A stretch of 64,000 bases of DNA, taken from Marinobacter oulmenensis. Lineage in GTDB: Bacteria > Pseudomonadota > Gammaproteobacteria > Pseudomonadales > Oleiphilaceae. This document shows, piece by piece, positions 431 to 22,101 of the stretch. Position numbers and translations under genes: made by a program. The notes below the pieces were generated by a model. The model was not told the DNA's origin. It saw nothing but the letters and a program-made list of their open reading frames with translations, and searched no databases. The stretch is taken from contig NZ_JACHFE010000011.1 of NCBI RefSeq assembly GCF_014201735.1, forward strand, positions 1-64,000. Direction: 5' to 3'. Each line of letters opens with the position of its first letter. Position 1 is the stretch's first letter.

Positions 431-1366
431 ATGGATATCCGTACCCCCATTCCTTCGCAGTCTAACCGTTTCCTGGATCGCCTTCGCAATTTCATTCGTC
501 TGCGCGGGCTGGCCTACAAAACTGAAAAGACTTATATCTTCTGGATTAAGCGGTTCATCCGTTTTCACGGGCGTCGGCATCCGGAAACCATGGGCACTTC
601 GGAAGTAGAAGCTTTTCTGTCTGATCTGGTTCTACAAGCCAATGTCAGCGTTGGCACCCAACGGGTGGCACTCAACGCTCTGATCTTTCTATACCGTGAA
701 TTTCTAGCTACTCCCCTTGAGGATCTCCATTATGAAAAGGCTAGGAAACCCAAAAAGCTGCCGGTGGTATTCAGCCCGGAGGAAGCCGCCAGCGTGATTA
801 CCAACCTGGAGGACGAGCACAAACTGATTGCCATGCTGATGTACGGCTCGGGCTTACGAATTAATGAAGCCCTCCGGCTACGCGTGAAGGATGTGGACTT
901 TGGCATGCAACAGATCATCGTCCGGGATGGCAAAGGCGGTAAAGACCGAGTCACCTTATTGCCTGATCGTCTGGTGGAGCCATTGTGGCAACAAATCGAT
1001 TCCGCCCTTCACCTGCACAAGGCCGATTTGGCTCACGGCTTTGGTTCAGTCTATATGCCTGCAGGGCTAGCACGGAAATACCCCAGTGCCTGCCAGGAGC
1101 CAGACTGGCAATATGTATTCCCTGCTTCCGACTTGTCTGTTGATCCGCGCTCAGGCATTAAAAGACAAAAGGCAAGTATCCATAAACCTGCAGGTAGCCA
1201 TACATTCCGGCACAGCTTTGCCACTAGACTGCTTGAAGCAGGCTACGACATCAGAACCATCCAGAAACTACTCGGCCACTCCGACGTACGCACCACGGAG
1301 ATCTATACTCACGTGGTTCGCAAAGGCGGCTTTGGCGTCCGTAGCCCCGTAGACGATGGCTTCTAG
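431..1366 (+). CDS. intI: Integron integrase IntI (tyrosine recombinase) with an apparent internal deletion
   Basis: This is a site-specific tyrosine recombinase of the integron IntI family. It has an N-terminal SAM-like core-binding domain (about residues 10-95), the box I arginine in YGSGLRINEALRL, the integron-specific stretch HKADLAHGFGSVYMPAG...W-QYVFPAS, box II HTFRHSF, LGHSDVRTT and the catalytic tyrosine in EIYTHVV. The ATG at 431 follows an AGAGG site and the LexA box. At 311 residues it is shorter than usual (about 320-340). Between SVDPRSGIKR and KASIHKPAG about 17 residues, the helix that normally begins with an HH dipeptide, are absent without a frameshift. The catalytic residues remain, but that helix packs in the catalytic domain, so activity is doubtful. 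The gene converges on the next one with a 4-bp overlap. Confidence 0.92.
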   Translation: MDIRTPIPSQSNRFLDRLRNFIRLRGLAYKTEKTYIFWIKRFIRFHGRRHPETMGTSEVEAFLSDLVLQANVSVGTQRVALNALIFLYREFLATPLEDLHYEKARKPKKLPVVFSPEEAASVITNLEDEHKLIAMLMYGSGLRINEALRLRVKDVDFGMQQIIVRDGKGGKDRVTLLPDRLVEPLWQQIDSALHLHKADLAHGFGSVYMPAGLARKYPSACQEPDWQYVFPASDLSVDPRSGIKRQKASIHKPAGSHTFRHSFATRLLEAGYDIRTIQKLLGHSDVRTTEIYTHVVRKGGFGVRSPVDDGF

Positions 1367-20301: not shown

Positions 20302-20407
20302 AAAGGAAATTCCCGGCAACCGTGGCAGACGGTTATAGAAGGTGTGAGTTCCGGCGTATACTACACCAAGCGAATTCATATGTTGGCATTTATGAACGGA
20401 GTGATTG

Positions 20408-20947
20408 ATGGCATCCCTGCAGGATCAGTTATTGAAGGCCGGACTGGCCGATGAAAAAAAGGCCAAGGCCATTCGCAGCGAAAAACGCAAAAAGCGCAAG
20501 CAGCAGCCCAAAGGCGCGGTCGAAGTCAGCGACGCTGAAATCCAGGCGCGCAAGGCCCGCGAGGATAAAGCCGAGCGGGACCGGCAACTGAACCTCCAGC
20601 GCCAGCAGGAGGCGGAAAAGAAAGCCATCCAGGCCCAGATCCGCCAGCTTGTCGAGACCAACCGCCTGGACCGGAGCCGGGGTGAAACCTCGTATCAGTT
20701 CGTGGACGGCAGGAAGATCAAGAAAATCCTGGTGGACGACACCATGGTGGATCAGCTCTCCCGCGGCCGGCTGGCCATTGTCTGCCTGGGCGATGAGAAC
20801 TACGAGGTGGTTCCGGACAAGGTGGCCCGCAAGATCATGGAGCGGGACGAAGCCGCCATCGTGGTGCTGCATGATCGTCAGCAGGACGACGCCGGCGAGG
20901 ACGACCCTTATGCAGGGTACGAGATTCCGGACGATTTGATGTGGTGA
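20408..20947 (+). CDS. DUF2058 family protein (YaiL-like)
   Basis: This 179-residue protein has an N-terminal, very basic and helical half. It contains the KKAKAIRSEKRKKRKQQ region and long charged repeats up to about residue 80, consistent with a coiled coil or nucleic-acid contact. A compact C-terminal half follows (YQFVDGRKIKKILVDDTMVD, LGDENYEVVPDKVARKI). It matches the DUF2058/YaiL family of supposed nucleoprotein-associated factors, whose role is not established. A GGAG site 8 bases upstream supports the ATG at 20408 over a TTG at 20405. It is followed directly by a tRNA-like repeat and a terminator. Confidence 0.82.
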   Translation: MASLQDQLLKAGLADEKKAKAIRSEKRKKRKQQPKGAVEVSDAEIQARKAREDKAERDRQLNLQRQQEAEKKAIQAQIRQLVETNRLDRSRGETSYQFVDGRKIKKILVDDTMVDQLSRGRLAIVCLGDENYEVVPDKVARKIMERDEAAIVVLHDRQQDDAGEDDPYAGYEIPDDLMW

Positions 20948-20949
20948 TC

Positions 20950-21025
20950 GGCCGCCTCCGCGTTGCTTCGGCGTTCCTCAGCCCGCTTTGCGGGCTGAGG
21001 TCGAACCTTTTATCGGTTCGAACCC
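20950..21025 (+). repeat. tRNA-mimicking repeat, copy A (5'-truncated)
   Basis: This segment aligns with copies B and C from GGCCGCCTCCGCG through GGCGTTCCTCAGC to a tail GGTTCGAACCC. The tail looks like the T-arm of a tRNA, but there is no anticodon arm or acceptor partner. An internal hairpin CAGCCCGC-TTT-GCGGGCTG replaces the CTTCGCG hairpin of the other copies. It begins three bases after the DUF2058 stop codon. Confidence 0.6.
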
Positions 21026-21050
21026 TGTCAGAATGCGAGATCTGTAAATA

Positions 21051-21078
21051 AAAAGCCCCGCACAAGGCGGGGCTTTTT
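21051..21078. terminator. Rho-independent terminator after the DUF2058 gene
   Basis: AAAAGCCCCGC (21051-21061) pairs with GCGGGGCTTTT (21067-21077) around a 5-base loop, with a T-tract on plus and an A-tract before the stem. It ends transcription from the DUF2058 gene and could also work on minus. Confidence 0.92.
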
Positions 21079-21086
21079 ATTTAATA

Positions 21087-21218
21087 TGGCGCGGCTGGGA
21101 GGATTAGGCGGGCCTACGGCCCTTCCCCCTTCGGGGCCGCCGTCGCATCGCGCCGGCGTTCCTACGCACACTTCGTGCGCTACGGTCGAACCTCTTTCGG
21201 TTCAAATCCTCCCAGCCA
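21087..21218. repeat. tRNA-mimicking repeat, copy B, with both ends matching the tRNA-Arg 3' end
   Basis: The left end (21087-21105) is identical to the last 19 bases of the minus-strand tRNA-Arg genes, including CCA. The right end, GGTTCAAATCCTCCCAGCCA (21199-21218), imitates the T-arm and acceptor end on plus. GGCTGGGAGGATT (21093-21105) and AATCCTCCCAGCC (21205-21217) are 13-bp perfect inverted repeats. The interior is a chain of short GC hairpins (GGGCC-GGCCC, CCCC-TTCG-GGGG, GCAC-ACTTC-GTGC) shared with copy C. No tRNA body is present. Confidence 0.72.
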
Positions 21219-21230
21219 TACAAAGCAAAA

Positions 21231-21263
21231 CGCCTCAGCCTGTGGGGAACACAAACTGAGGCG
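21231..21263 (-). terminator. Terminator of the tRNA operon
   Basis: CGCCTCAG (21231-21238) pairs with CTGAGGCG (21256-21263). On minus the stem is followed by TTTTGCTTTG. It lies 16 bp downstream of the last tRNA-Arg gene. Confidence 0.78.
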
Positions 21264-21278
21264 CTTCGACTTCAATTA

Positions 21279-21355
21279 TGGCGCGGCTGGGAGGATTCGA
21301 ACCTCCGACCGCCTGGTTCGTAGCCAGGTACTCTATCCAGCTGAGCTACAGCCGC
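21279..21355 (-). tRNA. tRNA-Arg (anticodon ACG), copy 2
   Basis: A 77-base cloverleaf with encoded CCA. The acceptor stem GCGGCTG pairs with CAGCCGC and the discriminator is G. The anticodon stem CCTGG/CCAGG holds loop CTACGAA (anticodon ACG, read as ICG after deamination). The T-arm is GGAGG-TTCGAAT-CCTCC. It differs from the copy at 21570-21646 little or not at all. It is the last tRNA before the operon terminator. Confidence 0.97.
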
Positions 21356-21396
21356 TTGAAACTTTTTCATCCTTTCCAATTTGGCAGTTAGCCTTT

Positions 21397-21511
21397 TGGG
21401 AGGATTATTCGGGCCTTCGGCCCTCACCCCTTCGGGGTCGCCTTCGCTTCGCTCCGGCGTTCCTCAGCACTCTTCGCGTGCTTCGGTCGAACCTCTTTCG
21501 GTTCAAATCCC
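21397..21511. repeat. tRNA-mimicking repeat, copy C, between the two tRNA-Arg genes
   Basis: It opens with TGGGAGGATT, the sequence found in the tRNA-Arg T-arm, continues through the same hairpin series as copy B (CGGGCC-TTCGGCCC, CCCC-TTCG-GGGT, GGCGTTCCTCAGC), and closes with CGGTTCAAATCCC (21499-21511). Acceptor-stem sequence is absent at both ends, unlike copy B. It sits wholly in the spacer between the two tRNA-Arg genes and would be transcribed in their precursor. Confidence 0.7.
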
Positions 21512-21569
21512 ATCTGACTTTAGAGAAAGTCTCAATGTCAGCGGGTTACGAAAGAGCGTTCCAAAATAG

Positions 21570-21646
21570 TGGCGCGGCTGGGAGGATTCGAACCTCCGAC
21601 CGCCTGGTTCGTAGCCAGGTACTCTATCCAGCTGAGCTACAGCCGC
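21570..21646 (-). tRNA. tRNA-Arg (anticodon ACG), copy 1
   Basis: A 77-base tRNA with CCA. The anticodon loop CTACGAA in stem CCTGG/CCAGG gives anticodon ACG. The D-arm contains AGCTCAGCTGGATAGAGT, and the T-arm carries GGTTCGAATCC. It is 40 bp downstream of tRNA-Ser in the same transcript. Confidence 0.97.
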
Positions 21647-21684
21647 GCATCTTATTGCCCGCTGTCTTTTTCCATAAAAGGAAA

Positions 21685-21776
<92 letters not shown>

Positions 21777-21903: not shown

Positions 21904-22101
21904 TCAGCTATTACCCGGTTCCGGCTCGTCGCCGTCTTTTTCGGTCTGAATCCGCTGATAGATTTCTTCACGGTGCACCGCTACGTCTTTGGGTGCGTTC
22001 ACACCGATGCGTACCTGGTTGCCCTTCACCCCCAGAACAGTGACGGTAATCTCGTCACCGATCATCAGGGTCTCGCCGACTCGGCGGGTCAAAATCAACA
22101 T
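21904..22101 (-). CDS. csrA: Carbon storage regulator CsrA (RsmA)
   Basis: This dimeric RNA-binding protein represses or stabilises mRNAs with GGA motifs in their leaders, and controls carbon flow, motility and biofilm. It has 65 residues. The N-terminal strand [16 protein letters not shown] holds the conserved RNA-contacting L4 and R6, and [13 protein letters not shown] contains R44. The acidic tail varies between species. It lies 155 bp after lysC and ahead of tRNA-Ser, an arrangement common in Pseudomonas and relatives. Confidence 0.96.

Follow-up and report, generated by a model that had tools for sequence, protein, structure and literature searches.

Organisation of the locus

The window, the 64,000-nucleotide stretch of Marinobacter oulmenensis DNA analysed here, contains a csrA gene, recognised by its sequence (21904-22101, minus strand), on the same strand as tRNA-Ser(GCT), the first tRNA of its cluster (21687..21776), and two tRNA-Arg(ACG) genes (21570..21646 and 21279..21355), all three tRNAs being located with ARAGORN. 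E. coli has the same gene order (csrA-serV-argV...). Read in the sense of the tRNAs, the locus consists of tRNA-Ser, tRNA-Arg, a repeat copy (C), the second tRNA-Arg, a terminator-like hairpin (T1), a further copy (B), a terminator (T2), a last copy (A) and, adjoining A directly with its stop, a gene that converges on the cluster (20405-20947, plus strand). An open frame of 188 amino acids runs antisense to both tRNA-Arg genes and copy C (window 21175-21741, plus strand); it is of a type that gets annotated and is almost certainly spurious.

The three copies of a hairpin-rich repeat described in the original prediction were recovered at its positions, with repeat boundaries at 20950-21011 (A), 21096-21209 (B) and 21397-21510 (C), and C does lie between the two tRNA-Arg genes. 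All three are read on the minus strand, and similar DNA is present in many related genomes. Over 114 nt, B and C share 87% identity. T1 (21231..21263, minus strand), recognised by sequence between tRNA-Arg and B, consists of CGCCTCAG...CTGAGGCG followed by TTTT, and T2 (21045..21083, minus strand) is an inverted repeat behind the CCA of B that was also recognised by comparison with loci lacking the element.

Sequence and fold of the copies

Copy B (21087..21228), whose host is the tRNA-Arg gene at 21279..21355, comprises from 5' to 3' one strand of a terminal helix, P1 (GGCTGGGAGGATT, 21205..21217), a hairpin P2 (GAACC...GGTTC) that merges into the word GGTTCGA (21186-21192), a core of about 80 nt with four hairpins, P3-P6 (21106..21185), which across the elements are in many cases capped by GNA loops, and a tRNA 3' end running from AATCC to CCA. 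This tail (AATCCTCCCAGCCGCGCCA, 21087..21105) is identical at 19 of 19 positions to the 3' ends of both tRNA-Arg genes (21279-21297 and 21570-21588), and its stretch 21093-21105 is complementary to the 5' strand of P1, giving the 13-bp inverted ends noted previously. The predicted fold of B is more stable than chance on both strands (z = -5.3 and -5.9), reaching -76.1 kcal/mol (z -5.85) on the minus strand.

The copies had been described as alike in ending with the T-arm wording of tRNAs (GGTTCAAATCC). That wording is present, but once the element is read on its functional minus strand it corresponds to the 5' end in antisense; the genuine tRNA piece is the tail of B, and the copies are not equivalent, since only B has this tail complete. 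Copy C (21397..21510) has the full core but keeps only AATCCTCCCA of the tail (21397-21406) and diverges beyond it, as the decayed tails of several relatives do, and copy A (20950..21025) is truncated, retaining the 5' part, P2, P3 and part of P4 and lacking the 3' half. The resemblance to a tRNA is thus confined to the 3' tail, which in B means the 13-bp terminal helix and CCA; a T-loop cannot form because the core occupies its place. An anticodon arm is missing from every copy in the window, as had been observed, and a cloverleaf containing one is absent; a tRNA pseudogene was rejected as an identity for A, B and C, none of which gave a match with ARAGORN or the tRNA model RF00005.

Assignment to the RtT family

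The original prediction knew of no described element that fits, a view overturned by the RtT RNA model (RF00391). Rfam at its gathering cut-offs reported only tRNAs in the window, and an RtT match requires relaxed thresholds, at which B, searched alone, aligned to all 130 model positions with 35.3 bits (E=1e-5), below the curated cut-off of 45 bits; C scored 20.6 bits (E=0.24). Scores above the cut-off were obtained for a further copy in the same genome, behind tRNA-Ser(GGA) (48.4 bits; G000:C2:258672-258813), which is 86% identical to C over 96 nt, and for an Arg-tailed Marinobacter relative (54.4 bits; L149, genome G408). E. coli K-12 rttR has the plan AAGGTTCGA-core-ATCCTTCCCCCACCACCA behind tRNA-Tyr, and its annotated 3' end falls exactly at CCA. 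Because of these matches, full-length for B and above the cut-off for the Ser copy and the relative, and because of the plan shared with rttR, it is very probable that all three copies belong to the RtT family, as kin of RF00391 and of E. coli rttR. Judged by sequence, they are new members of this known family, B being intact and C and A decayed. Identity to a named family, which had been set out earlier as grounds for discarding the proposal, is therefore found in substance, although RtT is neither a REP nor an IS family.

The likeness to E. coli rttR extends to the same-strand placement behind a tRNA, the GGTTCGA-core-ATCC plan, the terminal helix, the last 19 nt of the host tRNA with CCA as 3' end (19/19 in B, missing in C and A) and tandem units of ~180-190 bp. 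In contrast, the host is tRNA-Arg (and tRNA-Ser) here and tRNA-Tyr in E. coli, the P3 and P4 sequences differ, B and the Ser copy stand behind terminator-like hairpins, B scores under the curated cut-off, and C and A are decayed. REP or BIME elements likewise place GC hairpins between genes, and PMC2965389 describes one BIME-type attenuator cluster that resembles rtT; however, such repeats disperse between genes irrespective of tRNAs, whereas the core copies in this genome stand only beside tRNA genes and in one orientation to them. A MITE or IS remnant was rejected as well, as the inverted ends are tRNA-derived and vary with the host tRNA and the flanking repeat is a tRNA tail. Elements that integrate at tRNA 3' ends, with these serving as att sites, also have a tRNA 3' end as the direct repeat that flanks the added unit and leave the tRNA intact, but the unit here is 192 bp long, has no gene, carries a structured core and occurs with many tRNA types.

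Covariation of the hairpins

RNAalifold applied to a class-wide MAFFT alignment returned only 10 pairs because the stems differ in length, and covariation was therefore assessed in a genus alignment of 48 sequences with a named structure. In this alignment 92.8% of cells were paired, compared with 32-45% for slid structures, and 127 cells showed double changes against 37.5 +/- 9.2 in shuffled alignments, none of 500 shuffles reaching as high; in P3, five of the six pairs had double changes. The sense-strand fold was stabler than the antisense fold, beyond shuffles, in 65 of 91 cases (p=2e-6). A strand preference for G-U pairs was absent both in the genus (8 G-U versus 10 A-C cells) and among class pairs (100/2228 versus 103/2191). 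A crude scan placed a terminator-like hairpin between the tRNA and the RtT element in 29 of 70 cases, the Ser copy of this genome included.

Compensatory changes in the core helices pass almost entirely from one Watson-Crick pair to another, and the G-U (8) and A-C (10) intermediates are few, which is unusual for an RNA under selection. This pattern, like the missing G-U strand preference, may reflect hairpin correction or selection at the DNA level.

Distribution and host-specific tails

RF00391 was scanned across 274 genomes of the class (E<=1e-3) and 120 Marinobacter genomes (E<=0.01). Matches were present in 51 of the 274 class genomes, at 107 places, and in 54 of the Marinobacter genomes, with none detected in the other 66, which argues that the element is dispensable; a match was also found in family f210, which belongs to a different class within the phylum. 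At 86 of the 107 places a tRNA lay upstream on the same strand and at none on the opposite strand, and the 21 places without a tRNA in the fetched stretch are explained partly by contig ends. The association with tRNAs proposed from the window is therefore real and general, extending to all 86 matches that have a tRNA in reach.

The last 19 nt of the element agreed with those of its own host tRNA at >=18 of 19 positions in 66 of the 86 cases, with Gln, Tyr, Ser, Glu, Arg and Val tRNAs as hosts, compared with 0 of 1720 comparisons with the tails of other hosts at the same threshold. The model favours a CCA tail and not the host's own tail, so it is the share of elements with any tRNA tail that is biased. 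The 5' strand of P1 was complementary to the tail of its own host at 8 of 8 positions in 18% of cases versus 1.4% for other hosts, the fit being clearest for Gln, Tyr and Glu. The 5' side of the T-stem adjoining GGTTCGA was only weakly host-specific (2.5 of 5 positions versus 2.0), and for this reason 'insertion into the T-loop' describes a layout rather than a proven event. The sequences thus appear to follow a class-wide rule, in which the element lies on the same strand behind a tRNA and wears the tail of that tRNA while its core changes host. A literature search that took in few subscription journals found no paper stating a host-tail or host-switching rule.

At several loci with Ser and Arg hosts (L098, L125, L130 and L134), the 5' flank resembles an inverted copy of the host tRNA (e.g. 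GGATTCGAAGCCTCGGT, TTTCGAACCCTCGAT) that extends into the variable arm, beyond what the terminal helix requires.

Core history, added unit and empty sites

The core does not track the host tRNA, with mean identities across genomes of 0.621 for the same host and 0.616 for different hosts, but identity was higher (0.661) within a genome across hosts. Core identity reached 95% between copies behind Gln and Val tRNAs in one genome (G072) and between two Ser copies in another (G190).

In Marinobacter, the locus is occupied in some species and empty in many others. At 14 of 19 empty loci a terminator of the type AAAAACCCCGC...GCGGGGTTTTT directly follows tRNA-Arg, and in the window this type stands behind RtT copy B, as T2; the window tRNA-Arg (21279..21355) is instead followed by T1, a type not found behind tRNA-Arg in those 14 loci. 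Because the T2 type follows tRNA-Arg at the empty loci, the added unit can be delimited as tRNA tail-T1-RtT, with a period of 192 bp, and the tail of B together with T2 corresponds to the old end of the tRNA gene. The earlier alternative of a mobile repeat agrees with this at the level of pattern, in that the unit acts like DNA that joins a tRNA gene at its 3' end. The T1 type occurs at three empty loci (L033, L193 and L215), where it could be a deletion remnant. Tandem arrays were found with periods of ~150-215 bp, mostly 180-190 (including L021 and L032). In two relatives (L016 and L019) a tRNA-Arg body passes by way of GGAGGTTCGA directly to an RtT core; this chimaera has the layout of a T-loop insertion, yet recombination at the shared word could also have produced it.

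Copy B had no copy in the phage or plasmid records searched, and an E. coli query against a phage collection returned, among the matches listed, mostly tRNA-Tyr genes and contigs of bacteria.

The distance from the convergent gene to tRNA-Arg (window 20947-21279) is variable, ranging from ~50 bp to ~2.4 kb between species in the loci read (the window, L196, L204, L210, L213, L230 and L232). Bodies of tRNA-Arg pseudogenes were also observed in relatives, at L016:1026-1200 (plus strand), L019:1782-1930 (minus strand) and L021:620-690 and 1085-1165 (plus strand), some of them entering RtT sequence at GGTTCGA, and those of L016 and L021 have an insertion of ~15 nt in the D-loop region (CCCGGAGCGCCGGCC).

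A probable structured RNA with a tRNA-type 3' end

The elements are probably best understood as a structured RNA, tRNA-like at its 3' end, that is freed from tRNA transcripts and is encoded by a module spreading at tRNA 3' ends. Read together with the tRNAs, B would be a series of consecutive hairpins, and the helix that closes it has the tRNA-Arg 3' end with CCA as its 3' strand. The tRNA transcript would run into the element, C lying within the Ser-Arg-Arg unit and B, because a terminator-like hairpin precedes it, being reached by read-through only. Processing enzymes for tRNAs would then mature the 3' end of B into that of a folded RNA ending in CCA, as is reported to happen with E. coli RtT, and 3' maturation of this tRNA type is likely. 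The released RNA may have a role of its own, on which our confidence is low. At the DNA level, the module appears as a unit of ~180-190 bp added at tRNA 3' ends, with the 3' end of the host tRNA as flanking direct repeats, and it takes on the tail of the tRNA upstream; both are observed as patterns, for which recombination is the proposed mechanism. In E. coli, rttR lies in the tyrT operon (Bosl and Kersten 1991, cited in PMC2965389 and PMC4986893), and the two citing papers report release of RtT from the tyrT transcript and a link to the stringent response, the latter paper also describing Northern signals from two RtT homologues in Actinobacillus.

An alternative is that the repeat is DNA with no function as RNA, a passenger recombining at the 3' ends of tRNA genes through the 19-bp identity and multiplying by tandem duplication, its perfect hairpins arising from palindrome correction at the DNA level or serving as a recombination substrate. 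Such a passenger would suit the tandem arrays, the 192-bp unit relative to empty sites, the shift of the core between tRNA types and the occupation of one locus in some species and not others. It would also suit the lack of G-U strand bias and the copies behind terminators, both of which weigh against the RNA reading or are neutral to it. However, the element always points the same way as the tRNA and has CCA at its 3' end in the sense reading, the terminal helix is partly fitted to each host tail, and the sense-strand fold exceeds shuffled expectation, features that, together with the covariation, point to an RNA. RNA has moreover been reported in E. coli and Actinobacillus, and phage and plasmid records held no DNA match; we regard a passenger of this kind as unlikely.

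Two other readings fare less well. The original prediction saw in the transcript a possible tRNA-like decoy for processing enzymes, which would titrate RNase P, RNase Z or the CCA-adding enzyme, and the 3' end of B, which is that of a tRNA, carries CCA and sits on a 13-bp helix, does suit such a mimic. Yet the element lacks a T-loop, D-arm and anticodon arm, the copy named as the decoy inside the tRNA unit (C) has lost its tail, and one or a few copies per genome would presumably be too little to titrate abundant enzymes, making this function very improbable. Debris left at tRNA-Arg when a phage or island integrated, with the 19-bp repeat as a duplicated att site and the hairpins as remnants of att arms, would account for the tRNA 3' end being directly repeated on either side of the unit and for the variable interval behind tRNA-Arg in relatives; but the same covarying core follows many kinds of tRNA across dozens of families, which would not be expected from independent debris, and no phage record matched, so that we give this explanation hardly any credence.

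RtT has been known since 1991, and the papers found consider it either a tRNA-operon by-product or a small RNA of single species. Seen across the class, it is a widespread family with a strict rule of placement, on the same strand behind a tRNA whose tail it wears, and the interesting part is this combination of host-specific tails with host-switching cores. It raises the questions of how an RNA module acquires the end of a new tRNA and whether the tail is kept for processing, and Marinobacter, in which related species have one and the same locus either occupied or empty, is convenient for testing both. Returning to the released RNA, we tentatively suggest that it may be a mobile module whose core moves between tRNA genes, each time gaining the 3' end of the new host and an inverted copy of it with which to form the terminal helix, and whose RNA would in consequence always mature as that tRNA does; this is possible rather than probable.

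A further observation concerns the hairpin loops. With csrA next door, copies B and C had no GGA in a hairpin loop. Outside Marinobacter, the P3 and P6 loops of several relatives (L089, L091, L115 and L128) are of the AGGGA or CGGGA type in many RtT hairpins, in place of the GNA triloops, and a GGA presented in a hairpin loop in this way is suggestive of CsrA sites.
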